Source: Dactylosporangium aurantiacum (GTDB lineage Bacteria > Actinomycetota > Actinomycetes > Mycobacteriales > Micromonosporaceae). Taken from it: 49,578 bases of DNA. Below, piece after piece: positions 25,888 to 46,123 of the stretch. The first letter of the stretch is position 1, and each line of letters starts with the position of its first letter. The notes beneath the pieces were generated by a model, which ran no database searches, was not told where the DNA came from, and saw only the letters and a program-made list of their open reading frames with translations. Location: positions 1-49,578 of the forward strand of contig NZ_JNYJ01000086.1 of NCBI RefSeq assembly GCF_000716715.1. Reading direction: 5' to 3'. Made by a program: the position numbers and the translations under genes.

Positions 25888-26700
25888 TCACCGGCGCAGG
25901 GTGGCGCCCAGGCGGCGCACGGCGAGGGCCAGCGCGGCCGTGCCCAGGATGGCGAGGTACGCGGCGGAGACCAGCAGCTGCGGGCCGGGCGCGCCGAGGA
26001 ACGGCTGACGGACCAGCTCGATGCTGTGGTACAGCGGCAGCACCTCCACGAGCAGCTGGATCGGGCGCGGGTACACCGTCAGCGGGTAGAACGTGGTGGC
26101 GAACAGGAACATGGGCAGCATGACCAGCTGGATGAGCTGGAAGTCCTGGAACGTGCGCAGATAGGTGACGACGAGCAGGCCGACGGCGGCGAAGGCGTAC
26201 CCGGTGAGCAGGGCGCCCGGCAGGGCGAGCAGCACCCACGGGGAGTGGGCCAGGCCGAACGCGGACACCACGGCGAGGAAGCCGGTGGCGACGATGAACC
26301 CGCGCAGCAGCGCCCACCAGACCTCGCCGAACGCGACGAGCCGCACGGTCATCGGGGTGGTGAGGATCGACTCGTAGGTGTGGTCGGTCTTGAGCTTGCC
26401 GAACATGTTGAACGTGGTCTCGTTCATCGCGCCGTTCATGGCGGCGGTGGCCAGCAGGGCGGGCGCGACGAACTGCGGGTAGCTGACGGCGCTGTCGGAA
26501 AGGCCCGGCACGCCGTCGATGAGCAGGCCCATGCCGACGCCGAAGGCGAGCAGGTACAGCAGCGGCTCGAAGACCTCGGCGGCCAGGACGAACCAGGTGT
26601 GCCGGTAGATGAACAGGTTGCGTTCGACCATGGCCGCGGCGCGTCCCCGGCGCAGCGGCCCGCTGAGCGGGTTGAGCAGGGTGCTGGCTGTCGTCGGCAT
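25888..26700 (-). CDS. ABC-2 type transporter permease
   Basis: A 270-residue permease with six helices, of the NodJ/DrrB kind: VERNLFIYRHTWFVLAAEVF amphipathic start, FVAPALLATAAMNGAMNETTF, LTTPMTVRLVAFGEVWWALLRG and a final ATFYPLTVYPRPIQLLVEVLPLYHSIELVR motif region (seen as LPLYHSIELVR). Together with the adjacent permease and ATPase it forms a heterodimeric exporter. It is the last gene of the four-gene operon begun by the condensation protein and so probably exports the phosphonate product or provides self-protection. Confidence 0.9.
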   Translation of the reverse strand: MPTTASTLLNPLSGPLRRGRAAAMVERNLFIYRHTWFVLAAEVFEPLLYLLAFGVGMGLLIDGVPGLSDSAVSYPQFVAPALLATAAMNGAMNETTFNMFGKLKTDHTYESILTTPMTVRLVAFGEVWWALLRGFIVATGFLAVVSAFGLAHSPWVLLALPGALLTGYAFAAVGLLVVTYLRTFQDFQLIQLVMLPMFLFATTFYPLTVYPRPIQLLVEVLPLYHSIELVRQPFLGAPGPQLLVSAAYLAILGTAALALAVRRLGATLRR

Positions 26701-26711
26701 GCTGGCCCCCG

Positions 26712-27494
26712 TCAGACGTAGAGGTTTCGGCGGAAGTTGCGGCGGGCGAAGTACAGCCCGGCGAAGGTCATGGCGGTGAGGTAGCCGGCGTGGACGGCGA
26801 CGCCGGTGGGCGTGGCGGTGCCGACGGCGGCGTCGCGGGCCAGCTCGACGCCGTGCCACAGCGGGGTGGCCTGGGCGATCCAGCGCAGCATCGGGGTGAC
26901 CGTGCCGAGCGGGAAGAACGTGCCGGACAGCATGTACATGGGCATGACGATGAACCGCAGGATCGCCACCATCGTGGACAGCCGCCGCACCCGGACCGCC
27001 ATCGCGGCCACGCACGGGGCGAACGCGCAGCCGACGAGCACGGCACAGCCGACGACCAGCAGCCCGCGCAGCGGGTCCAGGGCGCCCATCGCGGCCGCGA
27101 CGACGGCGAAGAGCAGCGAGGTCACCGCCACGCGCAGGATGATGAACACGAGGTGGCCGTAGAAGATGGTCTCCGGCCACATGGGGGTCGCCGCGGCGGC
27201 CTGGTAGTTGTGCCGGCCGCGGATGGACTGGAAGACCGGTCCGGCGGACTCGACGTAGGTGGTCTGCATGGCGGCGGCGATGAGCAGCCCGGGCACGACG
27301 AAGCGCAGGTAGGTGCCGCCCGGTAGGGCCTGCGGGTCGGCGACGAGCTCGCCGAGACCGACGCCGATGGCGATCAGGAACAGCAGCGGGTTGACGACGC
27401 TGATGACGATGCTGCCGCGCCAGGTGCGGCGGTACCGCAGCAGCCAGTAGCGGGTCTCGCGGAACGTCTGGTTGGTGAGGGCGAGGGTGCTCAT
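26712..27494 (-). CDS. ABC-2 type transporter permease
   Basis: A 260-residue six-helix permease, similar in plan to the next gene: RYWLLRYRRTWRGSIVISVVNPLLFL start, RFVVPGLLIAAAMQTTY, AAAATPMWPETIFYGHL and MYMLSGTFFPLGTVTPMLRWIAQATPLWHGVEL, seen in part as QATPLWHGVELARDA. Its ATG overlaps the ATPase stop by ATGA. Paired NodJ-like permeases with one DrrA/NodI-like ATPase are typical antibiotic exporters. Confidence 0.9.
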   Translation of the reverse strand: MSTLALTNQTFRETRYWLLRYRRTWRGSIVISVVNPLLFLIAIGVGLGELVADPQALPGGTYLRFVVPGLLIAAAMQTTYVESAGPVFQSIRGRHNYQAAAATPMWPETIFYGHLVFIILRVAVTSLLFAVVAAAMGALDPLRGLLVVGCAVLVGCAFAPCVAAMAVRVRRLSTMVAILRFIVMPMYMLSGTFFPLGTVTPMLRWIAQATPLWHGVELARDAAVGTATPTGVAVHAGYLTAMTFAGLYFARRNFRRNLYV

Positions 27495-28429
27495 CAGTCC
27501 ACCAGCGTCCGGCCGGTCAGGGTGAGGAACACGTCCTCGAGGGTGGAGCGGCGCACCAGCGCGGTCAGCGGGGTGACCTTGCGCTCGTGCACGGCGGCCA
27601 GGGTCTCCTCACCGTTGGCGGTGTACAGCAGGACCCGGTCGGCGAACACGTCGACGCGGTCGGTGAGGCCCTGCAGCTTCTCCGCGGCGACCTCCCGCTC
27701 GGCGGCGGGGAAGCGCAGCTCGAGGACCTCGCGGGTGCTGTACCGGGCGATGAGGTCGGCCGGGGTGCCCTCGGCGATGATCTTCCCGCCGTCCATGATG
27801 ATGAGCCGGTCGCACAGCTGCTCGGCCTCGTCCATGTAGTGCGTGGTGAGCAGCAGCGTCACGCCGTCCTGCTTGAGCTGGAAGAGCCGTTCCCAGAGCA
27901 GGTGCCGCGCCTGCGGGTCCAGGCCGGTGGTGGGCTCGTCGAGCAGCACGATCGCCGGGTCGTTGATGAGGGCGCGGGCGATGGTGAGCCGCCGGCGCAT
28001 CCCGCCGGACAGGTTGCTGACCTGCTCGTCGGCGCGTTCGGTGAGCCGGGCGAACTCCAGCAGCTCGGTGGTGCGCCGCGTGATGTCGGCCCAGCGCATG
28101 CCGAAGTAGCGGCCGTAGATGAGCAGGTTCTCCCGCACGGTCAGGTCGGTGTCGACGCTGTCCTCCTGCGGCACGACGCCGAGACGCGCGCGGACCGCGG
28201 CGCCGTCGCGGTCGGGGTCGCCGCCGAGGACGCGCAGCGTGCCGCCGGACACCGGGGAGGTGCACGCGACCATGCGCATCGTGGAGGACTTGCCCGCGCC
28301 GTTGGCGCCGAGGACGCCGAAGGCCTCGCCGCGGCGGACCTGGAAGGTGATGCCGTCCACGGCGCGCAGCCCGCTGTTGTACGTCTTCACCAGGTCGCGG
28401 GCGTCGACCAGGATCTCGTCGGTCTTCAC
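27494..28429 (-). CDS. ABC transporter ATPase (DrrA/NodI-like)
   Basis: A 311-residue ATPase: Walker A GANGAGKSSTMRMV, Q-loop VVPQEDSVDTDL, signature NLSGGMRRRLTIARAL, Walker B IVLLDEPTTGLDP and switch LLTTHYMDEAEQL, followed by a C-terminal extension ending STLEDVFLTLTGRTL, the DrrA-type ending. The VPQEDSVDTDLTVREN variant is the NodI signature. The GTG start overlaps the condensation-protein stop (GTGA), so export and biosynthesis genes are coupled in one transcript. Confidence 0.93.
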   Translation of the reverse strand: MKTDEILVDARDLVKTYNSGLRAVDGITFQVRRGEAFGVLGANGAGKSSTMRMVACTSPVSGGTLRVLGGDPDRDGAAVRARLGVVPQEDSVDTDLTVRENLLIYGRYFGMRWADITRRTTELLEFARLTERADEQVSNLSGGMRRRLTIARALINDPAIVLLDEPTTGLDPQARHLLWERLFQLKQDGVTLLLTTHYMDEAEQLCDRLIIMDGGKIIAEGTPADLIARYSTREVLELRFPAAEREVAAEKLQGLTDRVDVFADRVLLYTANGEETLAAVHERKVTPLTALVRRSTLEDVFLTLTGRTLVD

Positions 28430-29814
28430 GGCTGTGCTCCGAACTCGCCGCGCAGGGTGGCGATGGTGAGGGTGTCGTCCGCGGCGGCCATGACGAGCAC
28501 GCGCTCGAGGTCACCGAGGGCGTCGGCGGCCGTGCGGGGGTGCAGGAACGCCGGGTGGGCGCTGAGCTGGAGCACGGCCCGGTCGCCGAGCTCCCTGAGA
28601 AACAGGAAGAACTTGCTGGTCATCTGGGTGCGGGTGTCATCGAGGCGGATGAGCTCGGTCGCGGCCTGGGCCTTGGCGAGCACGTCGGCGAGCGCGTCGC
28701 CGTCCGGCGGGTCCTCACCGGCGGGGCCGGTGTCGTAGCGCACGTCGTTGAAGAAGCAGTAGCCGCCGACCTCGATGCCGCGCTGTGCGGCGATCCCGGC
28801 GACGAGCTCCTCCAGGCGCCGCGGGTGGTACTCGCTGTTGCGGCTGGCGGCGAGGGCGGCGGCGCCGGCGTGGCGGAAGTAGTCGCCGGCGGTGCCTGAC
28901 CCGGGGACGTCGACGCGGAAGAGCGCGTTCTGGTTGAAGGCGCCGACGAGGCGGCGGCTCTGCGGCTGGAAGCGGGTCGCGACCAGCACCCGCAGCCCGG
29001 CGCCGTCGCTGCCGGTGTACAGGGCGAGCAGCAGCCCGGCGCCGGCGAGCACGACCTGGGAGTCGCTGAGGCCGTTGCGCCGGGCGAGCGCGCGGGCGGC
29101 GACGGCAAGCGCGGGGGAGCGGATCTCGCCCCAGTCCGGCCCACCGTCCGATGTGGACGGCAGCGGGGTGAGCATCGCGGCGGGCAGCGTCGTCATGTGC
29201 CTGGCCCAGAAGGCGAGCGCCCGCTCCTGCCGCTGCTGGGCGAGGTCGCCGCGCTCGTAGGCGGCCCGCTGCAGGGGCTGCTGCCCGGCCGGCTCCAGGG
29301 TGCCGCCGGTCGGGTCGCGCAGCAGCTCGCGCAGGTCGTCGGCGACGATCTGGATGCTCCAGCCGTCCACGGCCATGTGCGACACGACCATGACGATCAG
29401 CCGCGGCTGCCCGTCGCCGGTGAGCACGGCGAGGCGGACGGGCTGGTCGGCGGCGTGGTCGAACGGCGGCGCCAGCAGCCGGGCGGCGGTCGCGTCGGCG
29501 GTGCCGTCGAGGTCGGCCGTCTCGATCAGCTCGACGAGGACCTCGCCCTCGCCCTCGACGGTCTGCGTCGGGTCGGGCTCGCCGGGGTGCCAGCGGCTGT
29601 GCAGCACGTCGTGCCGCTCCAGCAGCGCGCGCAGCGCGTCGCGGACCGTGTCGAGGGTGGTGCCGGGCGGGACCTCGACACGGCGGATGAGGTTGAGCGT
29701 GTGCCACTCGTCCGGCGACAGCCAGACGAAGACGTCCCAGATCGCGATCTGTCCCCACATGAGTGGTCCGCTGCCGTGGTTGCCGGTGAAGCGGACGGGC
29801 ATCCGATCAGGCAT
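28426..29814 (-). CDS. Free-standing NRPS condensation-domain protein
   Basis: A 462-residue stand-alone condensation-fold protein. The opening GPLMWGQIAIWDVF and RHDVLHSRW match condensation core motifs C1/C2. Core C3 reads SHMAVDG (145-151): the second, catalytic His and the structural Asp-Gly are kept while the first His is Ser. Later motifs VGAFNQNALFRVDV (C5-like) and SEYHPRRLEELV follow. It likely forms an amide between a carrier-bound aminoacyl group and an amine such as an aminoalkylphosphonate. Transcription seems leaderless, from TTGCGG-N17-TAGCAT ending six bases before the ATG. Confidence 0.85.
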   Translation of the reverse strand: MPDRMPVRFTGNHGSGPLMWGQIAIWDVFVWLSPDEWHTLNLIRRVEVPPGTTLDTVRDALRALLERHDVLHSRWHPGEPDPTQTVEGEGEVLVELIETADLDGTADATAARLLAPPFDHAADQPVRLAVLTGDGQPRLIVMVVSHMAVDGWSIQIVADDLRELLRDPTGGTLEPAGQQPLQRAAYERGDLAQQRQERALAFWARHMTTLPAAMLTPLPSTSDGGPDWGEIRSPALAVAARALARRNGLSDSQVVLAGAGLLLALYTGSDGAGLRVLVATRFQPQSRRLVGAFNQNALFRVDVPGSGTAGDYFRHAGAAALAASRNSEYHPRRLEELVAGIAAQRGIEVGGYCFFNDVRYDTGPAGEDPPDGDALADVLAKAQAATELIRLDDTRTQMTSKFFLFLRELGDRAVLQLSAHPAFLHPRTAADALGDLERVLVMAAADDTLTIATLRGEFGAQP

Positions 29815-29820
29815 CGGCAG

Positions 29821-29849
29821 ATGCTATGTCTGTGCGTACGGTCCCGCAA
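29821..29849 (-). promoter_or_regulatory. Promoter of the condensation/exporter operon, leaderless
   Basis: On the minus strand TTGCGG (29844-29849) and TAGCAT (29821-29826) are separated by exactly 17 bases, and the ATG begins six bases after the -10 element, so transcription would start at or next to the start codon. No ribosome binding site is present, in agreement with a leaderless mRNA. Confidence 0.65.
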
Positions 29850-30216: not shown

Positions 30217-30504
30217 ATGACGACGCCGTTGGACAGCACGACCGGCAGCACGACCGGAAGGGCCTGGGACGACCGGTTCGAGGAGGTGCTGCGGGTGCAC
30301 CTCGCGCCGGGCACGCCGCCGCTGCGCCCCGACGACCGGCTGTTCGAGCTGGGCCTGGACTCGCTCGCCGTGGTGCAGCTCGCCGCCGACCTGGAGGACG
30401 CCTACGGGGTGTTGCTGCCCGACGAGTCGCTGACCCGGGAGAGCTTCGCGACGCCCGGCGGGTTGTGGGCCGTCGTCCACCCGCTGCTGCCCGCCGGCCG
30501 GTAG
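30217..30504 (+). CDS. Free-standing acyl/peptidyl carrier protein
   Basis: A 95-residue phosphopantetheine-binding protein. The attachment motif LFELGLDSLAVVQLAADLE contains the modified Ser in D-S-L, preceded by the first helix FEEVLRVHL and followed by the helix-3 region LLPDESLTRESFATPGGLW. A GGGAGA site precedes the ATG at 30217. It is the only carrier protein seen in the window, so it is the natural partner of the free-standing adenylation and condensation proteins of the cluster and would hold the activated amino acid as a thioester. It forms a single-gene unit facing the PPOX gene. Confidence 0.92.
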   Translation: MTTPLDSTTGSTTGRAWDDRFEEVLRVHLAPGTPPLRPDDRLFELGLDSLAVVQLAADLEDAYGVLLPDESLTRESFATPGGLWAVVHPLLPAGR

Positions 30505-30565: not shown

Positions 30566-31174
30566 TCAGTACAGCCGCTGCTCGTACTGCGGGCCGTACC
30601 GTTCCTCCAGTTCGGCCAGCGACTTGTCCGTCCACTCCGTCGCCTGGGCGATGCGGGCCCGCGAGGACACCGCATCCGGCGCCCAGGTCTCGGGCCGCCA
30701 CACGTCGCCACGCAGGAACGCCTTCGCGCAGTGGAAGTAGGCCTCCTGGACGCGCACCCGCAGCGCGAGCTGCGGCCGACGGCCACGCACCACCATCCGC
30801 TCGAACCACGGCTCGTCGCGCACCAGCGCGGCGCGGCCGTTGACCCGCAGCGTGTCGCCCCGACCCGGGATCAGGAAGAGCAGCCCGACGTGCGGGTTGC
30901 CCAGCACGTTGAGCCAGCTGTCGAGGCGGCGGTTGCCGGGCCGGTCGGGCAGGGCGACGGTGTGCTCGTCCAGCACCAGCGCGAAGCCGGGCGGGTCGCC
31001 GCGCGGCGACACGTCGCAGGTGCCGTCGGCGGCCGACGTGGCCAGCAGGCACAGCGGGGAGTGCGCCAACCACTCCCGCTCCAGCGGGCCGAGGACCGCG
31101 GTCGCCTTGCGGTACACGACCGGGTTCGCCTCGCCGGTCAGCGCCCGCAGCTCCTCGGCCGAGGTGATCTCCAT
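30566..31174 (-). CDS. PPOX-class FMN-binding protein (MSMEG_1061-like)
   Basis: A 202-residue split-barrel flavoprotein of the pyridoxamine-5'-phosphate-oxidase superfamily: SPLCLLATSAADGTCDVSPRGDPPGF (shown by CDVSPRGDPPGF), LPDRPGNRRLDSWLNVLGNPHVGLLF, with LPDRPGNRR typical of the MSMEG_1061 group, then IPGRGDTLRVNGRA and VQEAYFHCAKAFLR. Such proteins bind FMN or F420 and reduce or oxidise small substrates. It starts four bases after the TauD-like gene and is co-transcribed with it, hence a candidate tailoring enzyme of the phosphonate. Confidence 0.87.
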   Translation of the reverse strand: MEITSAEELRALTGEANPVVYRKATAVLGPLEREWLAHSPLCLLATSAADGTCDVSPRGDPPGFALVLDEHTVALPDRPGNRRLDSWLNVLGNPHVGLLFLIPGRGDTLRVNGRAALVRDEPWFERMVVRGRRPQLALRVRVQEAYFHCAKAFLRGDVWRPETWAPDAVSSRARIAQATEWTDKSLAELEERYGPQYEQRLY

Positions 31175-31178: not shown

Positions 31179-32153
31179 CTAGCTCGCCGGCTGCTTCGTC
31201 GACCACATGCGGAACATGTACCGGTTGACGTCCTCCGGCCGGTCGGTGCGCATGTCGATCGGGCGCGGCGGGCGGCGGTCGGCGAACGCGGTGCGGGTGT
31301 GCAGGAACCGGTCGTCGGCGGAGACGAGGATCTGGCCCTGGTCGAGCCGGACCCGGATCTGCACCGAGGACTGGTCCATCACGGCGTCGAAGATGTCCAG
31401 CGCGGCGGCGGTGGCCTCGCTCAGCGGCTCGCCGAGCTTCTCGTGGGCCACCTCGATGTAGGTGCGGAAGTAGCGGACCAGTGCGGCCCCGTCGGGGGAG
31501 TACCGGATGATCGGCGAACGGAAGAACTCCGGCTCCAGCGCCATGCCGCGCTTCTCGAACCAGAACTCCCGCTCCAGCTCGGCCAGCACCTCCGGGTGCG
31601 CCCGCAGCGCCTCGTGCACGGCCACGGCGTCGACCAGGATGCTCTCGCCGCCGACGAGGGCCGCCTGGCCGCAGGACAGCAGCAGGTAGTCGATCGGGTC
31701 GACGTCGTTGACCGCGTCGTTGTGCATGTAGGAGCCCTGGCGGGTCTGGTGGTAGCGGGCGCCCTCGGCGATCGTGCGGCCGGTGCCGCGGTCGTAGACC
31801 TCGATGAGCCGCCAGCCGTCGGTGTTCTGCACCATGGGCGTACCGAGCGCGTGGCCGAGCACCCACGTGTAGATGGCCTGCCCGCGCAGGGTGTCCACAC
31901 CGGACACCCGGTCGTAGACGATGAAGTGCGGCGACGCGTCGATGACCGCGCGGGTGGCCTCGACCTCCGCCGTGAAGGCCGGCACGGCGCCCAGGTCGAC
32001 CGCCAGGTCGTCGACGCGCCCTTCGGGCTGGCCGCGGTCCAGCATGTCCACATAGGACGCGAGTTCCTCCTGCGCCCCGGCGGAGAACGTGTGGAACGTC
32101 TGCGGCGGTGCGGCGAGGGTGCGTGGCTGGGTCGCGATGGTCGCACTGGTCAT
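31179..32153 (-). CDS. TauD/TfdA-family Fe(II)/2-oxoglutarate-dependent oxygenase
   Basis: A 324-residue oxygenase of the clavaminate synthase/TauD kind. The iron ligands are visible as H144-N-D146 (SYMHNDAVND) and distal H285 (FLHTRTAF), with basic residues after it that can hold 2-oxoglutarate. The ATG at 32153 is preferred over an in-frame start 114 bases upstream because an AGGGGG site precedes it and the longer form would run through the promoter and operator. Related oxygenases hydroxylate aminoethylphosphonate or its derivatives in phosphonate pathways, so hydroxylation of the phosphonate carbon chain or of the diaminopropionate unit is the likely role. Confidence 0.85.
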   Translation of the reverse strand: MTSATIATQPRTLAAPPQTFHTFSAGAQEELASYVDMLDRGQPEGRVDDLAVDLGAVPAFTAEVEATRAVIDASPHFIVYDRVSGVDTLRGQAIYTWVLGHALGTPMVQNTDGWRLIEVYDRGTGRTIAEGARYHQTRQGSYMHNDAVNDVDPIDYLLLSCGQAALVGGESILVDAVAVHEALRAHPEVLAELEREFWFEKRGMALEPEFFRSPIIRYSPDGAALVRYFRTYIEVAHEKLGEPLSEATAAALDIFDAVMDQSSVQIRVRLDQGQILVSADDRFLHTRTAFADRRPPRPIDMRTDRPEDVNRYMFRMWSTKQPAS

Positions 32154-32313: not shown

Positions 32314-33174
32314 ATGCAGCGATTGACCTACCCGTCCTTCCGCACCGTGCTCGAAGAGCGGGCCTTCGTGCGCGTCGCGGGCGTCAACCACGCGCTCGGC
32401 GGGCTGCTCGCGGAGGAGGCCGGGTGCGACGCCGTGTGGTCCTCCAGCCTGGAGGTCTCCGCCTGCCGCGGGGTGCCCGACGCCAGCATCCTGACGATGT
32501 CGGAGTACCTGGAGGCGGCGGCCAACATCCAGAAGGTGCTGCAGATCCCGGTCGTCGCCGACTGCGACACCGGCTACGGCGGCACGATGAACGTCGCGCA
32601 CATGATGCACGAGTACGAGGCCGCCGGGATCACCGCCGTCTGCCTGGAGGACAAGCGCTTCCCGAAGATGAACAGCTTCGTCGGCACCGGCCAGCACCTG
32701 CTGGACACCGGCGAGTTCACCACCAAGATCAGCGTCGCCAAGCGGGCGCAGACCTCACCCGAGACGTTCTTCATCGCCCGCACCGAGGCGCTCATCGTCG
32801 GCCAGCCGGTCGCCGAGGCCCTCGAACGCTGCCGCGCCTACGCCGACAGCGGCGCCGACGCGGTCCTCATCCACTCCAAGGCCAAGACCCGCGACCAGAT
32901 CATGGCGTTCCTGGACGGCTGGGACTTCCGCGTCCCCGTCGTGGTCGTGCCGACCACCTACCCCGACTGGCAGATCGACGACATGCGCGCCGCCGGCGTC
33001 TCCGTCGTCATCTACGCCAACCAGGGGCTGCGCGCCACCGTCGCCGCGCTGCGCGACACGTACGCGGCGATCCTGCGCCACGGCGACTCGACCGTCGTGG
33101 AGGGCTCGATCGCCTCGGTGCGTGACATCTTCGACCTGCAGCGCCTCGCCGAGTGGCAGAAGCTCGAGGCCTGA
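32314..33174 (+). CDS. pepM: Phosphoenolpyruvate phosphomutase (PEP mutase)
   Basis: A 286-residue enzyme of the isocitrate lyase/PEP mutase superfamily that isomerises phosphoenolpyruvate to phosphonopyruvate, forming the C-P bond; this is the defining step of phosphonate biosynthesis. The diagnostic mutase motif E-D-K-x5-N-S is present as EDKRFPKMNS (112-121), and DCDTGYGG (83-90) holds the metal-binding acid. The EDK motif distinguishes it from isocitrate and methylisocitrate lyases, which carry a Cys motif instead. A GGGGGA ribosome site lies just before the ATG. It heads a long operon of overlapping genes. Confidence 0.96.
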   Translation: MQRLTYPSFRTVLEERAFVRVAGVNHALGGLLAEEAGCDAVWSSSLEVSACRGVPDASILTMSEYLEAAANIQKVLQIPVVADCDTGYGGTMNVAHMMHEYEAAGITAVCLEDKRFPKMNSFVGTGQHLLDTGEFTTKISVAKRAQTSPETFFIARTEALIVGQPVAEALERCRAYADSGADAVLIHSKAKTRDQIMAFLDGWDFRVPVVVVPTTYPDWQIDDMRAAGVSVVIYANQGLRATVAALRDTYAAILRHGDSTVVEGSIASVRDIFDLQRLAEWQKLEA

Positions 33175-38103: not shown

Positions 38104-38161
38104 GCGGCGCAGGGTGGAGCTCAGGTCGGCGCCGGAGCGCAGCGGAGGAGACGACATGAGC
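38050..38161. repeat. Perfect 56-bp tandem duplication carrying a ribosome site and start codon
   Basis: Bases 38050-38105 are repeated exactly at 38106-38161. Each copy ends with GGAGGAG-acgac-ATGAGC, so the ribosome binding site and start codon of the following kinase gene are present twice. The extra copy creates a 19-codon frame (38100-38159) whose stop overlaps the true kinase ATG at 38156. Confidence 0.95.
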
Positions 38162-38965: not shown

Positions 38966-40074
38966 CCCGTGTCGTGCTGATGAACCCCGGACCCGTCAAC
39001 GTCGACGAACGGGTCCGGGCCGCCATCGCCTCGCCGGACGAGTGCCACCGCGAGCCCGAGACCCGCGAACTGCTCGCCCGGGTCCGCGGCAAGCTCGCCA
39101 CCGTCGCCGGCGGCGGCGACGCGCACACCGCGGTGCTGCTCACCGGATCCGGCACCGCCGCGCTGGAGGCGACGGTCTCCTCCGTCGTGCCGGCCACCGG
39201 CGGGCTCCTCGTGCTCGACAACGGCCACTACGGCGAGCGGCTGCACCGCATCGCCCAGGTGCACGGCATTCCCGTGCGGCGCCTCGAGTTCGGCTGGGCC
39301 AACCCCGTCGACCTCGACGCCGTCGAGCGGGCCCTGACCGCCGAGCCGTGGCTCAGCCACGTCGGGCTGGTCCACCACGAGACCAGCACCGGCATGCTCA
39401 ACCCCGCCGGCGACGTCGGCCGGCTCACCGCCCGGCACGGCCGCTCCCTCATCCTCGACGCCATCTCCAGCATCGGCGCCGAGGACCTCGACGTCGTCGC
39501 CGACCACGTCGACTGGTGCGTCGGCACGGCCAACAAATGCCTGGAAGGCCTGCCCGGCATCAGCTTCGTCCTCGGTACCCGAGCCGGGTTCGACGCGCTC
39601 GCCGCGATCCCGGCCCGCACCTTCTACCTGGACCTGCACGCCGGCTACCGGGCGCAGGTCGCCGGCGGCGCGCCCCAGTTCACCCCGGCGCTGCAGGTGC
39701 TGCGCGCCCTGGACGTCGCCCTCGACCTGACCCTCGCCGAGACGGTCACGGGCCGCGGCGAACGGTACCGGGCCCGCGCCGAACAGCTCCGGACCGGGCT
39801 CACCGACCGCGGCGTGGCGCTGCTGCTGCCACCACCGCACCGGGCCGCCTCGATCACCAACGCCTGGCTCGGCGGCGACCTCACCTACGACCAGCTGCAC
39901 GACGGGCTCAAACAGCACGGGTTCGTCATCTACGCCGTCCAGGACCGCGTCGCGGGCTCGTTCCGGCTGGCCAACATGGGCCAGCTCACCGCGGCGGACA
40001 TCGACCGATTCTTCACCGCGTTCGACGCCGTGACCGCCCGGCCCACCGTCGCGGCCGTGGGGGCCGGACAGTGA
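38962..40074 (+). CDS. phnW: 2-aminoethylphosphonate aminotransferase-like enzyme (class V)
   Basis: A 370-residue class V PLP aminotransferase. VLMNPGPVNVDERVR is the typical PhnW start, CHREPE follows, LLTGSGTAALEATVSS lies near the cofactor, LILDAISSIGAE holds the Asp, and GTANKCLEGLPG has the PLP Lys192. PhnW interconverts phosphonoacetaldehyde and 2-aminoethylphosphonate with alanine/pyruvate. Here, after PEP mutase and phosphonopyruvate decarboxylase, it would run in the synthetic direction to form the aminoethylphosphonate unit. Confidence 0.92.
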   Translation: MTRVVLMNPGPVNVDERVRAAIASPDECHREPETRELLARVRGKLATVAGGGDAHTAVLLTGSGTAALEATVSSVVPATGGLLVLDNGHYGERLHRIAQVHGIPVRRLEFGWANPVDLDAVERALTAEPWLSHVGLVHHETSTGMLNPAGDVGRLTARHGRSLILDAISSIGAEDLDVVADHVDWCVGTANKCLEGLPGISFVLGTRAGFDALAAIPARTFYLDLHAGYRAQVAGGAPQFTPALQVLRALDVALDLTLAETVTGRGERYRARAEQLRTGLTDRGVALLLPPPHRAASITNAWLGGDLTYDQLHDGLKQHGFVIYAVQDRVAGSFRLANMGQLTAADIDRFFTAFDAVTARPTVAAVGAGQ

Positions 40075-40094
40075 CCGGCACGAGGGAGGACACC

Positions 40095-42293
40095 ATGCCC
40101 CGCATCGGGCTCGCGATCGTCGGCGGCGGACCGACGTGCACCTACGTACTGGAGCGCCTCGCCGCGCTCACCCTGGACCGGTCCGGCGACCTCGCCCTCG
40201 ACCTGGTCATCTACGACCACTCCGGCGAGTTCGGCTCCGGCGCGGTCCACAGCCCGAAACAGACCACGACGAGCTACCTCAACCGGATCGTCGGGCAGGT
40301 CGCCTTCGCCGCCGACGAGAGCGTCATCGACGCCGGTCCGCTGCTGCCCCGCGACGCCCGGCCCACCCTGCTGGACTGGTGCCGGGCCAGGTACGCCGCG
40401 ACCGGCGACCCCGCCTACGACCTCGTCGCCGAGGACTGGCCGAAACGGTACCTGCACGGCCTCGCCCTGCAGGACCAGTTCACCTGCTACATCGACATGC
40501 TGCGGGGCGCCCCCGGCGTCAGCGTCGACCTGCGCCGCGCCGACGTCACCGACCTCGTCGAGGACGGCGACGGGTTCCTCGTCGTCACCGCCGACGGCGA
40601 CGACCCCTTCCGGGCCGACTACGTGCTGCTGCTCACCGGGCACTCCACCAACCGCCCCGAGACCGACCCCATGCAGGCCGAATGGGCGCGGTTCACGGCC
40701 CGCCACGACGCGCGGCTCATCCCGTCGGCGTACCCGATGGAGGAGACGCTGCACGGCCCGCACACCGGACCCGGCTCCACCGTCGCCTGCCTCGGCATGG
40801 GCCTCACCGGCATCGACGTGCTGCTGTACCTCACCGAGGGCCGCGGCGGCCGGTTCACCCGCGGCGAGGACGGCACGCTCAGGTACCAGCCGTGCGGCCA
40901 GGAGCCCGACGAGATCGTCGCGTTCAGCCGCAACGGGCTGTTCACCTTCGCCCGGCCGTACAACCAGAAGGAACGCGACATCGCCAAGTACGAGTACCGC
41001 GGCGTGTTCCTCACCAACGCCGCCGTGCAGCGGCTGCGCGACGCGTTCGGGCTGGTGCACCCGGTGCCGACGCTCACCCGGCCGCAGCTGGACTTCGAAC
41101 GGCACGTGTTCCCGCTCGCCGTGCTGGAGATGGCGCTCATCTACTACAGCACCCTGTACGGCGACCGGTTCCGCGCCGCCGCGATCGCCGCCGCCGGACC
41201 CGCCTACGAACGGTTCCTCGCCACCGCCGACGAGTACCCCGACCACCACGCCGCCTGCGCCGAGCTGACCGCGCCGGTGCAGGACCTCGCCGCGGCCGTC
41301 GCCGCCGACGTCGACGCCGTCCTCACCGGCCGGCGGGTCCTCGGCGACGACGCCGCGCTGCGCGAGGCGGTGACCGCGTTCCTCACCGTCCTGCACGACC
41401 CCGCCCGCGCCGCCGAGCTGCTCGCCCACGCCGACCGGCCCGCCGCGCTGGCCGATGCGGTCGCCGCCGCCGGCTCGCCGCACCGGCATCCGCTGTCGGC
41501 GGCGCGGCACCGCTTCTCCTGGGCCGAGGCCATCGAACCGGTGCCGGCGAACGGGTACGCCACCGCGGAGGAGTACCACCGCAAGTTCCTGGACTTCCTC
41601 GACGCCGACATCCGCTGGGCCGCGCAGGGCAACCTCAGCAACCCCGGCAAGGCCGCCGCCGACGCCGTCTGGCGCGACCTGCGCGGCGTCATGATCGACG
41701 CGGTCGACTTCGGCGGGCTGCGCGCCGGCTCGCACCGGGTCTTCCTCGACGTGTACACCGGCCACCACAACCGGCTCTGCCAGGGCGCCTCCTGCGAGGC
41801 GATGGAGAAGGTCGTCGCCCTCATCCGTGCCGGCTACGTCGACGTCACCGTCGGCCCGCAGGCGCGGGTCACCTGCGACGAGGAGACCGGCAAGTTCCGC
41901 ATCAGCGGGCCGGTCACCGGCGTGCACCGCCTCGCCGACGCGCTCGTCGACGCGCGCGTGCAGCGCTTCGACGCCGCCCGCGACGTCAGCGCCCTCTACC
42001 CGAACCTGCTGCGCCGCGGCCTCATCCGGCAGTGGACCAACCCGGGCATCGACGAACCCGACTTCACCCCCGGCGGGCTCGACCTGACGCCGCAGTTCCA
42101 CCCGGTGCGCGCCGACGGCACCGTCGAACGGCGCGTCACCGTGCTCGGCCCGCCGAGCGAGGGCGTCATGTACCACCAGATCGGCGCACTGCGCCCCAAC
42201 AAGGACCACCACGTGATCCGCGACATCCTCAGCTGGACCAACGCATTCCTGCCGCACGCGGCGGCCCGCACCCCGGAAAGGGTTTCACCATGA
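40095..42293 (+). CDS. Large FAD/NAD(P)-binding protein (PF13454-like)
   Basis: A 732-residue flavoprotein. The FAD-binding motif is at the N-terminus, IGLAIVGGGPTCTYVLERLAAL, seen as IVGGGPTCTYVLERL, followed by DHSGEFGSGAVHSPKQTTTSYLN, DYVLLLTGHSTNRPE and a second nucleotide-binding VACLGMGLTGIDVLLYL. The long C-terminal half is helical. ATG 40095 has GAGGGAGGA six bases upstream and is preferred to an in-frame GTG at 40071. Family members are poorly characterised and include predicted monooxygenases and dehydrogenases. In this operon it is a strong candidate for an oxidative tailoring step, possibly N-oxidation, but the reaction is unknown. Confidence 0.85.
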   Translation: MPRIGLAIVGGGPTCTYVLERLAALTLDRSGDLALDLVIYDHSGEFGSGAVHSPKQTTTSYLNRIVGQVAFAADESVIDAGPLLPRDARPTLLDWCRARYAATGDPAYDLVAEDWPKRYLHGLALQDQFTCYIDMLRGAPGVSVDLRRADVTDLVEDGDGFLVVTADGDDPFRADYVLLLTGHSTNRPETDPMQAEWARFTARHDARLIPSAYPMEETLHGPHTGPGSTVACLGMGLTGIDVLLYLTEGRGGRFTRGEDGTLRYQPCGQEPDEIVAFSRNGLFTFARPYNQKERDIAKYEYRGVFLTNAAVQRLRDAFGLVHPVPTLTRPQLDFERHVFPLAVLEMALIYYSTLYGDRFRAAAIAAAGPAYERFLATADEYPDHHAACAELTAPVQDLAAAVAADVDAVLTGRRVLGDDAALREAVTAFLTVLHDPARAAELLAHADRPAALADAVAAAGSPHRHPLSAARHRFSWAEAIEPVPANGYATAEEYHRKFLDFLDADIRWAAQGNLSNPGKAAADAVWRDLRGVMIDAVDFGGLRAGSHRVFLDVYTGHHNRLCQGASCEAMEKVVALIRAGYVDVTVGPQARVTCDEETGKFRISGPVTGVHRLADALVDARVQRFDAARDVSALYPNLLRRGLIRQWTNPGIDEPDFTPGGLDLTPQFHPVRADGTVERRVTVLGPPSEGVMYHQIGALRPNKDHHVIRDILSWTNAFLPHAAARTPERVSP

Positions 42294-42997
42294 CCGACCA
42301 ACAGCCCGGCCAGGACATCGCCGGCCGGCTGGCCGAGATCGACGCCGTGCACGCCTGGATCCGCTCGGCGACCGCCGGGCTCGACGAGGACGGTGTCCGC
42401 GCCCCGAGCGGCCTGCCGGACTGGACCCGCGCGCACGTGCTGGTCCACCTCGGCGACCTGTCCCGGGCGTTCGCCCGCCAGGCGCGCTACGCGGTGCGCG
42501 GCGAGACCATCGAGGTGTACGACGGCGGCCGGTCCACCCGGGACAAGTCGATCGAGGAGAACCACACCCGCGACGCCGCCTGGCTCGTCGAGCACGCCGT
42601 CTCCGGTCTCGCGGACCTGCGCGACGCCTGGTCCGGCCTCACGCCGCAGGACTGGCAGCGGCCGTGCGCGTACCGCGACTCGCCGCTCATCGCCACCCAG
42701 TACGCGTGGTGGCGGGAGTCGGAGCTGCACGGTGTGGACCTCGCCCTCGGCCGCACCAGCGAGCAGTGGAGCCCCGCGCTGGCCGAGCACGTCGTCACCT
42801 ACCTCCAGCCGCGGCTCGGCCCCGGCACCGGCGTGCGCATGGACGCCACCGACGCGGGGCTCACCTGGAACCCGGACGGCGCCGTCACCGTCACCGCGCC
42901 GCTGACCGCGCTCGCCGCCTGGATCTCCGGCCGGCCGGGGGTCGCCCCGACGGTGACGCCGCCCGGGCCGCTGCCGCTGCTGCACGCCTGGCCGTGA
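42290..42997 (+). CDS. Maleylpyruvate isomerase family mycothiol-dependent enzyme
   Basis: A 235-residue DinB-fold protein. LPDWTRAHVLVHLGDLSRAFARQA carries the first metal-binding His typical of the MDMPI family, and WWRESELHGVDLALG the second His, with RDAAWLVEHAVSGL between. The family uses mycothiol, the actinobacterial thiol, as cofactor or substrate in isomerisations and conjugations. It overlaps the flavoprotein gene by ATGA and so belongs to the operon. It could attach or remove mycothiol on an electrophilic intermediate, or handle phosphonoacetaldehyde; unproven. Confidence 0.85.
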   Translation: MTDQQPGQDIAGRLAEIDAVHAWIRSATAGLDEDGVRAPSGLPDWTRAHVLVHLGDLSRAFARQARYAVRGETIEVYDGGRSTRDKSIEENHTRDAAWLVEHAVSGLADLRDAWSGLTPQDWQRPCAYRDSPLIATQYAWWRESELHGVDLALGRTSEQWSPALAEHVVTYLQPRLGPGTGVRMDATDAGLTWNPDGAVTVTAPLTALAAWISGRPGVAPTVTPPGPLPLLHAWP

Positions 42998-43022
42998 CCA
43001 ACCCCTCGTCGAAAGGTTCACC

Positions 43023-43562
43023 GTGCCCACTGACGCACTGCAAGCGGCCGCGCCGCCAGCCCTGAGCACCGCCGAGGAGGTGGTCAGGGCCTATACCGGG
43101 CAGGGGTACACGCACTTCACCGGGGTGCCGTGCTCGCTGCTCAAGGGCCTGTTCAAGCTGCTGGAAGGCCCGCCGACCGAGCTGACCCGGCAGGTGACCT
43201 ACCTGCCGGCGCCCCGCGAGGACGCGGCCGTCGGCGTCGCCACCGGCCTCGCCGTCGCCGGCGCCCGGCCGGTCGTGATGATGCAGAACTCCGGCCTCGG
43301 CTACTGCCTCAACGTGCTGACCTCGCTCAACCTCATCTACGACGTGCACGTGCCGCTCATCGTGAGCTGGCGCGGCCACGACGGCAACGACGCCGTCGAG
43401 CACGACATCATCGGCCGGGAGCTGACCAACCTGCTCGACGTCTTCGGGCTGCGCTGGAGCGTGCTGGACCCGGCCCGCCCGCACGACAGCGTGCTGGACT
43501 GCCTCGCCGCGACCGCCGACGGGAAGGCCACCCCGGTGCTCATCGTCAAGGAGAGGATATGA
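43023..43562 (+). CDS. Phosphonopyruvate decarboxylase, N-terminal (alpha) subunit
   Basis: A 179-residue TPP-binding pyrimidine-domain subunit. YTHFTGVPCSLLKGLFKLL matches the Ppd start G-V-P-x-S-L-L, PAPREDAAVGVATGLAVAGA has the TPP-activating Glu, and MMQNSGLGYCLNVLTSLN and SWRGHDGNDAVEHDIIG follow as in phosphonopyruvate and sulfopyruvate decarboxylases. With the next gene it makes the two-chain enzyme that converts phosphonopyruvate to phosphonoacetaldehyde and drives the pathway. The GTG at 43023 has GAAAGG upstream. PepM in the same operon points to phosphonopyruvate and not sulfopyruvate as substrate. Confidence 0.93.
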   Translation: MPTDALQAAAPPALSTAEEVVRAYTGQGYTHFTGVPCSLLKGLFKLLEGPPTELTRQVTYLPAPREDAAVGVATGLAVAGARPVVMMQNSGLGYCLNVLTSLNLIYDVHVPLIVSWRGHDGNDAVEHDIIGRELTNLLDVFGLRWSVLDPARPHDSVLDCLAATADGKATPVLIVKERI

Positions 43563-44107
43563 CCACGCCAGGCATCACCGAGGCGATCCTCGCGGTGACC
43601 CGCCGGTTCCCGGCCGCGCTCACCGTGTCCACCTGCGGCTTCATCACCCGTGACCTGTACAACGTCGCGGACCGGCCGCAGAACTTCTACCTCGTCGGCT
43701 CGATGGGCATGGCCGCGCCGGTCGGGCTCGGCATCGCCCTGGCCGTCCCCGGGCGGCAGGTCGTGGTGCTCGACGGCGACGGCTCGTTCGCGATGAACCT
43801 GTCGGTGCTGCCGATGCTCGCCGAGCACCGGCCCAACCTCGTGCACGTGGTGCTGGACAACGGCGTGCACGAGAGCACCGGCGGCCAGCGGCCGGTCCAC
43901 GTCGGTGACCCGGCCGGGCTCGCCCTCGCGGCCGGGTACGCCGCCGCGTACACCATCGACAGCCTCGACGCCCTCGAGGCGCTGACCCCCGCGGACGGCC
44001 CGACGCTCGTGCACATCCGGTGCACGCCGCGCGGGAAGTCGGCGGGCGCGCGGGTGCGGTGGACGCCGCAGCAGATCGTGGCCAGGTTCGCCGAGGCGGC
44101 TGCCTGA
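43559..44107 (+). CDS. Phosphonopyruvate decarboxylase, C-terminal (beta) subunit
   Basis: A 182-residue TPP-binding subunit. LVGSMGMAAPVGLGIALA and the diphosphate/Mg motif GDGSFAMNLSVLPMLA (from residue 73) with VVLDNGVHESTGGQ are the standard Ppd C-terminal half. It overlaps the alpha gene by ATGA. In most phosphonate clusters the enzyme is a single chain; the split form here resembles the two-subunit sulfopyruvate decarboxylase ComDE and is also known in some phosphonate clusters. Confidence 0.93.
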   Translation: MTTPGITEAILAVTRRFPAALTVSTCGFITRDLYNVADRPQNFYLVGSMGMAAPVGLGIALAVPGRQVVVLDGDGSFAMNLSVLPMLAEHRPNLVHVVLDNGVHESTGGQRPVHVGDPAGLALAAGYAAAYTIDSLDALEALTPADGPTLVHIRCTPRGKSAGARVRWTPQQIVARFAEAAA

Positions 44108-45126
44108 TGCGGGTCGGCGTGGACGTGCTCGACCCGGTGCTGCGCTCGTCGAGGACCGTGGACCTGGGTGTGCTGACGCTGCGGATCTCCTCCAACCTGG
44201 AGGAGTTCGACGGGTACGCGTACTTCCCCCGACCGGCGGTCCCCGGTGCGGAGCCCGACGAGGAGCTCGTCTGCGTCGACCTCGACCGCGACCCGGTGGA
44301 CGTCGCCGAGCTCGAGGCGCTGGCGGACCGGACCCTGCGCGCCAAACGTTTCCGGACGGGCTACTACCTCAGCCACGTCTTCGGCGCACCCGCCTACCTC
44401 GTGACCCGGGGGCGGCGCCGGTTCGTCTTCGGCCGCCGGCTGGAACGCACGGTGTGGCCGTACTTCGTCAAGACCATCCTCACCGCGCACGCCATCGACC
44501 ACGGCCGGCTGCACCTCAAGGCCGCCGGCTTCACGGCCGGCGGGGCGGCGACCCTGCTGGTGGGCGCGAACGCCGGCGGCAAGACGGTGTTCCTGGAGCA
44601 GGCGTGCCGGGCCGGCGCCCGCTTCCTGAGCAACACCCACACGCTGGTCCTGCCCGGTCCCGGGGCGGGCGTCGCGGTGGGGGTGCCGTCGGCGGTACGG
44701 GTCCGCGAGGTCGCACCGGAGCTGCTGGCGTCCGGGCGGGCGCGCCGGCACATCGAGGCCGGCGACTACATCGTGGACCCGGCGGAGCTGTTCGGCGGCG
44801 ACCCGGTCGCCTCGGCCCCGGTCCGCAACGTCGTCATCGCCAACTACCGGCCGGGGGCGCCCTTCGCGTTCGACCGGATCGGCGCGGCGGACGCGGAGGC
44901 GTTCTGCGAGCAGTTCGCCTCGGCGCTGACGATGTACGGGCTGAAGGACGACGTGCTGGCGCACGGCGGCGGTGACGCGCTGCGCTTCGCCGGCATCGTG
45001 CGGGACATGCGCCGCCGCCTGCACGACCTGGTGTCGGCGGCGCGCTGCTACCGGGCCACGGTGGACATGCACGACGCCACGCACCGGGCCGCCGTGCTCG
45101 CCGAGCTCGCCGCGCCGCTGCCGTGA
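44107..45126 (+). CDS. HprK-like P-loop kinase
   Basis: A 339-residue protein with a P-loop LLVGANAGGKTVFLEQA (GANAGGKT at 153-160) and the sequence environment of HPr kinase-like proteins, AHAIDHGRLHLKAAGF just before it. The 150-residue N-terminal part is an unassigned alpha+beta domain. HprK-like proteins of natural-product clusters phosphorylate peptide serines (for example in lasso-peptide loci). No peptide precursor is visible here, so a small-molecule or carrier-bound hydroxyl group could be the acceptor. Its ATG shares one base with the previous stop (TGATG). Confidence in the kinase role is moderate. Confidence 0.7.
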   Translation: MRVGVDVLDPVLRSSRTVDLGVLTLRISSNLEEFDGYAYFPRPAVPGAEPDEELVCVDLDRDPVDVAELEALADRTLRAKRFRTGYYLSHVFGAPAYLVTRGRRRFVFGRRLERTVWPYFVKTILTAHAIDHGRLHLKAAGFTAGGAATLLVGANAGGKTVFLEQACRAGARFLSNTHTLVLPGPGAGVAVGVPSAVRVREVAPELLASGRARRHIEAGDYIVDPAELFGGDPVASAPVRNVVIANYRPGAPFAFDRIGAADAEAFCEQFASALTMYGLKDDVLAHGGGDALRFAGIVRDMRRRLHDLVSAARCYRATVDMHDATHRAAVLAELAAPLP

Positions 45127-45272
45127 GCGGCGTGCTGCTGGTGTCGCCTCCGGTGTCGGGCTTGGTGTCGCCTTCGGTGTCGGCCTTGGTGTCGCTTTCG
45201 GTGTCGCTTTCGGTGTCGCTTTCGGTGTCGGGCCTGGTGTCGGGCCTGGTGTCGCGCTTGGTGGCCGCGTGA
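45123..45272 (+). CDS. 49-codon Val-Ser-x-x repeat frame, coupled at both ends
   Basis: The frame begins at GTG 45123, overlapping the HprK-like stop by GTGA, and ends at TGA 45270-45272, overlapping the EamA start by GTGA. The peptide is a short leader, VSGVLL, then ten tetrapeptides V-S-x-x (PP, GL, PS, AL, LS, LS, LS, GL, GL, RL) and a final VAA. It is hydrophobic, with Ser every fourth residue, and could insert in a membrane or form an amyloid-like strand. It might instead only carry ribosomes between its neighbours. It resembles nothing I know. Confidence 0.5.
   Translation: MSGVLLVSPPVSGLVSPSVSALVSLSVSLSVSLSVSGLVSGLVSRLVAA
45141..45260. repeat. Ten tandem 12-bp units (GTGTCG plus six variable bases)
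   Basis: Ten adjacent units all begin GTGTCG; the second half is CTTTCG in three consecutive units and GGCCTG in two. The period of 12 keeps the 49-codon frame open whatever the copy number, so the array can grow or shrink without breaking coupling to the transporter gene. Confidence 0.95.
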
Positions 45273-46123
45273 CGGCGGCGGTGCTGCTGGCGGTGCTGGT
45301 CGCGGCGGTCGTCCACGCCAGCTGGAACGCGGTGGCGCACACCATCGACGACGAGCTGGCCGGGCTGAGCCTCGTCGGGGCCGGGCGGGTGGTGTGCGGT
45401 CTCGCCCTCGCGGCGGCGGCGCCGGCACCCGACCCGGCGTCGTGGCCGTGGCTGGCCGCATCGGCGCTGCTGCACGTCGTGTACCAGGTGCTGCTGGTGC
45501 GCTCGTTCGCGCTCGGCGACTTCGGGCAGGTGTACCCGATCGCCCGCGGCACGGCGCCGATCGTGGTGACGCTGGTGGCCACGACGGTCCTCGGCGAGCG
45601 GCTGCACCCGCTGACGCTCGCCGGGGTCGCGGTGACCATGGCCGGCCTGGTCGGGCTCGCCGTGTGGGGTTTCCGCGCCCGCCAGGCCGACGCCCCGCCG
45701 TCGTGGCCGGGGATCGTGGCGGCGCTCGGCACCGGGCTCACCATCGCGGCGTACACCGTCGTGGACGGCGTGGGCGTGCGCGCGGCGGTCGCCACCGCCG
45801 GCTACGTGGCCTGGCTGATGATCAGCGACGGCGTCGCGGTGCCCGCCTACGCCCTCGCGCGGCACGGCACGGCGATGGTCCGCCGGGCCCGTCCGGTCGC
45901 CGCCAAGGGCCTCACCGCCGGTGCCCTGTCCGTGCTGTCCTACGGCCTGATCCTGTGGGCACAGGCGAACGCGCAGCTGGCGCCGGTCGCGGTGCTGCGC
46001 GAGTCGAGCATCCTCGTCGGCGCGGCCATCGCCACGTTCTGCTTCCGGGAGCGCTTCGGCGCACCGAGGGCCGTCGCGGCGGCCGTCGTCCTGGCCGGCA
46101 TCACCCTCATCCTGGCCCGCTGA
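45269..46123 (+). CDS. EamA family (drug/metabolite transporter) permease
   Basis: A 284-residue protein with ten hydrophobic helices in two EamA halves: VLLAVLVAAVVHASWNAVAH start, LLHVVYQVLLVRSFALGDFGQVYPIARGTAPIVV typical of the family (seen as GDFGQVYPIARGTAPIVV), TVLGERLHPLTLAGVAVT, and in the second half QLAPVAVLRESSILVGAAIA and CFRERFGAPRAVAAAVVLAG. The GTG at 45269 is the first in-frame start after the repeat array. Being the last gene of the phosphonate operon, it probably exports the product or a precursor. Confidence 0.9.
   Translation: MTAAVLLAVLVAAVVHASWNAVAHTIDDELAGLSLVGAGRVVCGLALAAAAPAPDPASWPWLAASALLHVVYQVLLVRSFALGDFGQVYPIARGTAPIVVTLVATTVLGERLHPLTLAGVAVTMAGLVGLAVWGFRARQADAPPSWPGIVAALGTGLTIAAYTVVDGVGVRAAVATAGYVAWLMISDGVAVPAYALARHGTAMVRRARPVAAKGLTAGALSVLSYGLILWAQANAQLAPVAVLRESSILVGAAIATFCFRERFGAPRAVAAAVVLAGITLILAR

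Follow-up and report, generated by a model that had tools for sequence, protein, structure and literature searches.

A Dactylosporangium aurantiacum phosphonate gene cluster that may attach diaminopropionate to an N-oxidized head

The window, a stretch of 49,578 nucleotides from Dactylosporangium aurantiacum, is an entire contig (NZ_JNYJ01000086.1) of an 11.4-Mb genome in 227 contigs, and it carries a phosphonate gene cluster in which genes for 2,3-diaminopropionate (Dap) synthesis and for free-standing nonribosomal peptide synthetase (NRPS) proteins are embedded. Genes were called with a codon-bias gene caller, and families were assigned by profile scans (Pfam, NCBIfam) that covered the window from position 23312 rightward. 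Twenty genes were placed between positions 25888 and 46123, and all parts that a preliminary description of this DNA had named for this interval were found there. The right arm is a single packed run on the + strand in the order PepM, SbnA, SbnB, A, NTP5, FomA-like, PhnW, 740-aa flavoprotein, MDMPI, Ppd alpha, Ppd beta, FomB, and EamA. The left arm lies mostly on the - strand. Here the genes for a TauD protein and a PPOX flavoprotein adjoin pepM and, past a carrier gene on the + strand, the C gene overlaps an exporter operon by 4 bases. The genes are as follows.

25888..26700, - strand: ATP-binding cassette (ABC)-2 exporter membrane protein 1 (Pfam PF01061, 69 bits)
26712..27494, - strand: ABC-2 exporter membrane protein 2 (Pfam PF01061, 75.5 bits)
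27494..28429, - strand: ABC exporter ATPase, NodI/DrrA-like (PF00005, 105 bits; 4-base overlap with the C gene)
28426..29802, - strand: free-standing condensation (C) protein (PF00668, 76.9 bits; motif SHMAVDG)
30217..30504, + strand: free-standing acyl/peptidyl carrier protein (PF00550, 41.8 bits; motif GLDSL)
30566..31174, - strand: FMN PPOX-type flavoprotein, MSMEG_1061 family (TIGR04025, 236 bits, cut-off 170)
31179..32153, - strand: TauD-family dioxygenase (motif HND...H; top solved relative FrbJ)
32314..33174, + strand: phosphoenolpyruvate (PEP) mutase, PepM (ATG start after GGGGGA; EDKRFPKMNS)
33180..34145, + strand: SbnA-type enzyme of Dap synthesis (TIGR03945, 354.7 bits, cut-off 349.95)
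34135..35172, + strand: SbnB-type enzyme of Dap synthesis (TIGR03944, 406.3 bits, cut-off 326.9)
35169..36860, + strand: free-standing adenylation (A) protein, presumed Dap-activating (240 bits; pocket DIWEITADDK; ATG overlaps the SbnB stop)
36857..38014, + strand: NTP5, uncharacterized nucleotidyltransferase family (PF14907, 150 bits)
38114..38965, + strand: FomA-like phosphonate kinase, amino acid kinase fold (160 bits, cut-off 550; top solved relative FomA)
38974..40074, + strand: PhnW/AepZ-like aminotransferase (TIGR03301, 342.9 bits, cut-off 360.8)
40071..42293, + strand: N-oxidase (NOX) of the CreE/FzmM/PcxL group, 740 aa (solved relative 8cp2)
42290..42997, + strand: mycothiol-dependent maleylpyruvate isomerase (MDMPI) family protein (H53/E143/H147 invariant in nine sequences)
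43023..43562, + strand: phosphonopyruvate (or sulfopyruvate) decarboxylase-type alpha subunit (profile scans)
43559..44107, + strand: phosphonopyruvate decarboxylase-type beta subunit (profile scans)
44107..45126, + strand: FomB-family phosphonate monophosphate kinase (NF000361, 511 bits, cut-off 400)
45269..46123, + strand: EamA-type membrane protein, phosphonate-associated (phn_DUF6, below cut-off)

PepM scored far above the Pfam cut-off for PEP_mutase (176.5 against 31.5 bits), its top solved relative was the PEP phosphomutase 5unc, and the EDKxxxxxNS motif is present as EDKRFPKMNS, all of which agrees with its earlier naming as a PEP mutase. The adjacent alpha and beta genes are predicted to encode phosphonopyruvate decarboxylase (Ppd), the partner step that drives the PepM reaction. 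Both subunits of this predicted two-subunit enzyme were recovered above the Pfam cut-offs for thiamine pyrophosphate (TPP) domains, and the beta subunit scored 137.8 as phosphonopyruvate decarboxylase against 134.9 as sulfopyruvate decarboxylase. With the PhnW-like aminotransferase also present, the family assignments support the proposed supply of aminoethylphosphonate by PepM-Ppd-PhnW. FrbJ was the first and TmpA the third (E = 4e-5) solved relative of the TauD protein and, by this comparison, the oxygenase is FrbJ/TmpA-like.

SbnA and SbnB, encoded side by side, passed their NCBIfam equivalog cut-offs, the former narrowly (354.7 against 349.95) and the latter with 406.3 against 326.9, in line with the Dap supply first suggested. 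Both equivalogs of the staphyloferrin B pathway are thus present, but in the window the pair sits beside phosphonate and NRPS-type genes. The separate A, carrier, and C proteins were all above Pfam cut-offs (240, 41.8, and 76.9 bits), again as described before. Read at what we take to be the GrsA pocket positions, the A protein has the pocket DIWEITADDK, and DIWE[ILVM]TADDK was present in 113 of 121 aligned rows. The protein is 88% identical to a homologue from Dactylosporangium sp. NPDC000555 and 58% identical to the Streptomyces alanosinicus protein P0167 (UniRef name AlaC), the pocket of which differs only by Leu in place of Ile. Among the matches listed, 5 of 120 A homologues were SbnB-A fusions by Pfam (P0230, P0231, P0235, P0237, and P0239), and P0139 was an A-NTP5 fusion. 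Because the pocket is kept in relatives and SbnB-A fusions occur naturally, the NRPS trio is read as activating Dap, and the A protein is presumed to be the Dap-activating component. The main text of PMC12283262 gives DVWQMIGDDK as a diaminobutyrate signature and treats Dap and diaminobutyrate signatures as alike; DIWE is absent from that main text.

The C protein carries the motif SHMAVDG, in which the catalytic (second) His, the Asp, and the Gly are kept. The HHxxxD pattern alone matched nothing in this protein, but the full alignment showed SHMAVDG, and for that reason a loss of catalysis is not claimed. Nineteen C homologues were found, four of them named Dactylosporangium, and the window protein is 28-32% identical to its counterparts in seven Streptomyces clusters.

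The likeness of the A protein to AlaC also allows another role for Dap: it could be a carrier-bound scaffold that is altered on the carrier and partly kept or later cut off, as may happen in the L-alanosine pathway. According to excerpts of PMC11705231, alanosine is built from Dap, and the L-alanosine cluster (ala/aln) thus shares with the window the building block as well as the free-standing A protein. However, that cluster lacks C-P chemistry, and its N-N genes as given in these excerpts (AlaD/AlnG of the acyl-CoA dehydrogenase type, the cupin AlnA, and a CreD homologue) were not seen in family scans of the cluster proteins. Moreover, the N-oxidase is also found without Dap genes, as described below. 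We therefore regard a scaffold role as rather unlikely.

The preliminary description had also listed flavoproteins, an oxygenase, kinases, and exporters. All are present, whereas the nature of the large flavoprotein, NTP5, and the mycothiol-isomerase-like gene had been left unnamed. The kinases could be typed: one is FomA-like, with FomA as its top solved relative but a score below the curated cut-off, and the other exceeded the cut-off of the FomB family (511 against 400 bits). Compared with the fosfomycin self-protection kinases FomA and FomB, the window thus has a clear FomB-family member and a distant FomA-like protein; no name of a fosfomycin epoxidase or of its precursor route appeared in the family scans of the cluster proteins, which did not seek them as such. 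NTP5 gave a predicted structure with a mean predicted local distance difference test score (pLDDT) of 55, too poor for structure search, and its profile matched no solved chain. The MDMPI protein has the solved relative Cgl3021, and its invariant H53, E143, and H147 fit what is presumably the metal site of this family.

Relatives of the cluster were sought with two of its proteins. A PepM search of genome contigs led to four named loci at 66-69% identity, in Streptomyces sp. NRRL S-455, Streptomyces sp. I6, Streptomyces sp. SBT349, and S. anulatus NRRL B-2873. In a 392-genome sample from the genus to which NRRL S-455 belongs, 14 genomes had an N-oxidase match at E <= 1e-100; in a class-wide sample, 2 of 394 had one at E <= 1e-60, namely the own genome and G353. 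The loci were sorted into types from maps of their genes and from a tblastn table (E 1e-10) that covered the fetched stretches. FomB was dropped as a marker for relatives because, among 61 genomes, only the own genome had it, and it was not found in any of the four named Streptomyces.

Four of the 14 genomes (G472, G746, G579, and G565) hold clusters of type 1, in which PepM, SbnB, A, NTP5, FomA-like, PhnW, N-oxidase, MDMPI, Ppd, FomB, EamA, and TauD are present at 54-76% identity (TauD, 70-72%; EamA, 58-62%). SbnA matched at full length with 64-67% in three; in G579 the match was 63% over 44% of the query and had not been called by the gene caller. The order, PepM-SbnA-SbnB-A-NTP5-FomAl-PhnW-NOX-MDMPI-PpdA-PpdB-FomB-EamA, is that of the window. 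FomB is present in all four of these neighborhoods, which were among the stretches of the 392-genome sample in which it was sought. The type 1 carrier (37-55% by blastp) lies between PpdB and FomB, whereas that of the window is in the left arm. Each of the four clusters also has a major facilitator superfamily (MFS) exporter, a trio of ATP-grasp ligases, and a C protein that is more distant; a TldD/PmbA pair is found in three of them and is absent from G565. At E 1e-4 the ATP-grasp trio and the MFS exporter of the Streptomyces left arm had no match among the called window proteins; in their place the left arm of the window has the ABC exporter. As the window lacks ATP-grasp ligases, its cluster probably makes a smaller product than the type 1 clusters do. 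The TldD/PmbA-like pair that stands with three ATP-grasp ligases in Streptomyces clusters (L023:14424-15752 and 13123-14427) has no match among the called proteins of the window. The PPOX flavoprotein was matched over its full length in B-2873 (66%) and in G565 (70%), and at E 1e-10 none of the compared loci matched ABC-2 membrane proteins 1 and 2.

Since orthologous gene order is kept in four other genomes, a chance assembly of the cluster is untenable. This bears on an alternative, that aminoethylphosphonate serves cell-surface decoration and the NRPS genes are unrelated neighbors. Excerpts of PMC6697681 state that most bacterial phosphonate capacity goes to surface tailoring. However, besides the conserved order, three more loci combine the Dap block with another head, and no MobA-like or cytidylyltransferase-like Pfam match occurred among the scanned cluster proteins, although NTP5 belongs to a nucleotidyltransferase family. 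Surface decoration is thus considered highly improbable.

The three loci with the different head (S-455, which is also among the 14 genomes, I6, and B-2873) form type 2. They share the Dap/A/NTP5/carrier/FomA-like/PhnW/N-oxidase/MDMPI block and have no Ppd, TauD, FomB, or EamA matches. Upstream of pepM they have genes for a D-2-hydroxyacid dehydrogenase, Zn- and Fe-type alcohol dehydrogenases, an ArgC-like protein, and a phosphoglycerate kinase (PGK)-like protein; these families were assigned from B-2873 and extended to the other loci by matches. The PGK-like, ArgC-like, 2-hydroxyacid dehydrogenase, and two alcohol dehydrogenase genes run divergently from pepM at L011:4277-9704, as in the same region of L008, L009, and L010, and replace Ppd as the head pathway. 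We presume a likeness of this head to the valinophos route. A 2-hydroxyacid dehydrogenase after PepM fits phosphonolactate (PMC12871164, in part). SBT349 has the type 2 head and no matches to SbnA, SbnB, A, NTP5, the carrier, MFS, ATP-grasp, or TldD. In this strain, in which the Dap/NRPS block is absent, the FomA-like kinase and PhnW are encoded, as assembled, in one 671-aa frame (L010:11567-13582), and this fusion suggests a biosynthetic role for the FomA-like kinase.

For Streptomyces sp. I6, a 2019 announcement described a phosphonate-nonribosomal peptide hybrid cluster and no product (PMC6346202, in part), and excerpts of a 2025 survey credit the strain with two phosphonate clusters (PMC12723261). 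We infer that the cluster of 2019 is locus L009; coordinates are absent from the paper, and two pepM genes are reported for I6. Like the window, I6 has PepM, SbnA, SbnB, A, NTP5, FomA-like, PhnW, N-oxidase, and MDMPI-like genes in the same order (45-69% identity) and a carrier. Unlike the window, its carrier follows NTP5 and is followed by an extra kinase-like gene, a 2-hydroxyacid dehydrogenase/PGK-like/ArgC-like head replaces Ppd-TauD-FomB-EamA, and three ATP-grasp ligases, a TldD pair, and an MFS exporter are present, none of which match called window proteins.

A third set of seven loci, G713, G494, G458, G642, G788, and G745 from among the 14 genomes plus G353, has PepM, Ppd, PhnW, and the N-oxidase and resembles the phosphonocystoximate/hydroxynitrilaphos (pcx/hpx) clusters, a label given by gene content and not by comparison with the pcx/hpx sequences themselves. 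G826 is similar but incomplete. In G713 a TauD homologue (62%) lies one gene, an MFS exporter, past the N-oxidase, with PepM-Ppd-PhnW about 6 kb upstream across other genes. At E 1e-10 the seven loci gave no match to SbnA, SbnB, NTP5, FomA-like, FomB, MDMPI, or the carrier; distant A-family matches (26-37%) occurred in four of the seven and a distant C match in one. The window differs from them in having the SbnA, SbnB, A, carrier, and C genes. Trees rooted at the midpoint, with 16 rows for PepM and 24 for the N-oxidase, both placed the seven loci in a fully supported group. The window grouped with the four type 1 sequences in the N-oxidase tree (100/100), whereas its position among the other nine sequences was not resolved in the PepM tree. 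By eye, and among the matches listed, at least 19 contigs, paired by their length, appear to carry both N-oxidase and A homologues, with Streptomyces, Streptosporangium, and Haloactinomyces among the names.

The N-oxidase of the window had a single solved relative up to E = 1, 8cp2. As excerpts of PMC10404684 state, 8cp2 is an L-aspartate N-hydroxylase, FzmM, CreE, and PcxL belong to the same subgroup, and PcxL is oxime-forming with 2-aminoethylphosphonate as substrate. By sequence, the 740-aa flavoprotein is in this CreE/FzmM/PcxL group of N-oxidizing monooxygenases. A manual count on the alignment covered the aspartate contacts given there for 8cp2 (Arg13, Arg276, Asn413, Arg416, and Arg577). 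Of these five, three are replaced (Arg13 by Thr, Asn413 by Gly, and Arg416 by Ile), Arg577 is retained, and Arg276 falls in an unaligned stretch; the sulfate-binding Arg266, Arg409, and Arg412 are retained. WRDxR was present in all 120 N-oxidase homologues among the matches listed. At the Arg13 position of 24 aligned sequences, Thr is found in the window and its four orthologues, Ser in 11, and Arg in the seven pcx-like loci, and the residue is missing from one shortened row. A role as aspartate N-hydroxylase supplying nitrite for an N-N bond was rejected: three of five aspartate contacts are replaced, the enzyme occurs beside PepM and PhnW without SbnA/SbnB and also fused to PepM, and no CreD-type lyase was seen among the cluster proteins in family scans.

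N-oxidase-PepM fusions made up 9 of the 120 N-oxidases among the matches listed. These proteins (P0068, P0072, P0073, P0075, P0083, P0084, P0101, P0103, and P0104) have about 980-1120 residues, two are named as coming from Solirubrobacterales metagenome-assembled genomes, and P0101 and P0104 have an altered EDK motif. In the part consulted, the PepM fusion inventory of PMC6697681 has no such fusion. Because of these fusions, and because the enzyme sits with PepM and PhnW in SBT349 and in seven further loci without SbnA/SbnB matches, it probably acts on the phosphonate rather than on Dap. The fusions SbnB-A, A-NTP5, PepM-N-oxidase, and FomA-PhnW together support functional pairings of the respective proteins. 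At L048-L051 (G752 and G552) the N-oxidase stands with a thymidylate-kinase-like gene and without a PepM match within about 18 kb.

The resemblance to the pcx/hpx-like loci invoked the idea of a phosphonocystoximate- or hydroxynitrilaphos-like product whose oxime head is the active part, with Dap as a removable uptake or masking residue in a Trojan horse dipeptide. PepM, Ppd, PhnW, and the N-oxidase are common to all seven loci and TauD to one, and the mycothiol-isomerase-like protein of the window retains its three presumed metal ligands; however, none of the seven loci matched that protein at E 1e-10, and the comparison was made with look-alike loci rather than with known phosphonocystoximate genes. 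Trojan horse behavior has been proposed for other phosphonopeptides (PMC13302981, in part). We judge this option to be decidedly unlikely.

The reading that we favor, with modest confidence, is that the cluster makes a small, Dap-bearing, N-oxidized phosphonate. The earlier proposal that the NRPS simply joins Dap to an aminoalkylphosphonate was not supported as stated, as the CreE/PcxL-group N-oxidase, the FrbJ-like dioxygenase, and the FomA/FomB-type kinases point to further oxidation and phosphorylation. The N-oxidase accompanies PepM and PhnW where Dap genes are absent, which suggests that aminoethylphosphonate is probably hydroxylated and N-oxidized, beyond acylation. A link between Dap and the phosphonate is plausible, and the phosphonate amine may no longer be free. 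By homology, PepM would form phosphonopyruvate, Ppd alpha/beta would convert it to phosphonoacetaldehyde, and PhnW would yield 2-aminoethylphosphonate. Hydroxylation of this head, probably of its carbon 1, would fall to the FrbJ-like TauD protein, and oxidation of the amine to an oxime-level product to the PcxL-like N-oxidase. SbnA/SbnB would, again by homology, provide L-Dap, which the free-standing A protein would load onto the free-standing carrier, and the C protein would pass Dap on from this sole carrier to an acceptor in solution, in the simplest case the phosphonate head or its N-OH/C-OH. The FomA- and FomB-like kinases could phosphorylate the phosphonate either as an intermediate step or for self-protection, and the ABC exporter and the EamA protein would export the product. 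NTP5 and MDMPI might, for example, serve to form a thiol adduct on an activated oxime, like the one in phosphonocystoximate.

Several observations weigh against this reading. PepM (272.6 against 319.55) and PhnW-AepZ (just short, 342.9 against 360.8) lie under their NCBIfam equivalog cut-offs, as do both Ppd subunits, and Ppd alpha scored 99.2 as sulfopyruvate decarboxylase alpha against 96.5 as phosphonopyruvate decarboxylase. The FomA-like kinase reached 160 bits against a cut-off of 550. In the C protein Ser replaces the first His of HHxxxDG and, with a single carrier in the cluster, the acceptor is a guess. A fully oxidized amine could not be N-acylated by Dap. The N-oxidase has Thr where the seven pcx-like loci have Arg, its PcxL-like function would follow from family and context, and two loci hold the enzyme without PepM nearby, so that its substrate need not always be a phosphonate.

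The cluster is not unique, since four genomes in the 392-genome Streptomyces sample hold orthologous clusters (54-76%). The novelty is thus smaller than the first impression, that no described phosphonate has this combination, had suggested: comparison of gene neighborhoods gave four type 1 and three type 2 relatives, and the I6 hybrid has been in print since 2019. Dap-containing phosphonates did not appear in titles or abstract openings of the open-access literature among the matches listed, and the main texts of two reviews had no match for diaminopropion/oxim (PMC13302981) or diamino/oxime (PMC12288639). As far as seen, the product is uncharacterized.

Beside the cluster, an S51 peptidase gene lies directly to the right (46169-46828) and may or may not be part of it; no match was found in the type 1 loci (tblastn table, E 1e-10). 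On the left, a single open reading frame (23312-24433) combines transglutaminase-like and NTP_transf_6 domains, and its halves match on separate contigs in the same-genus genome G006. In six same-genus genomes, no clear empty site was recognized from the genes that flank the cluster on the left and right.

The phosphonates include many antibiotics and herbicides, and for few of them is a link to NRPS parts known. The cluster probably builds an antibiotic-like molecule in which a small C-P compound is N-oxidized and Dap is attached. It is possible, though we hold this tentatively, that the family makes modular "head-swapping" phosphonates: a single conserved Dap-NRPS/N-oxidase core would be combined with a head of either two or three carbons, and one assembly module would thereby serve different targets. 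Equally tentatively, Ppd-PhnW-TauD would give the two-carbon head with a P-C-C-N-O skeleton, and 2-hydroxyacid dehydrogenase-PGK-like-ArgC-like-PhnW the three-carbon head with a P-C-C-C-N-O skeleton. The former skeleton occurs in the enolase inhibitor phosphonoacetohydroxamate and the latter in FR-33289. The cluster family couples an oxime-group N-oxidase, Dap loading, and fosfomycin-type kinases, and it recurs in several actinomycete genera. It swaps the C-P head and keeps the rest, which yields testable predictions on substrates and product.

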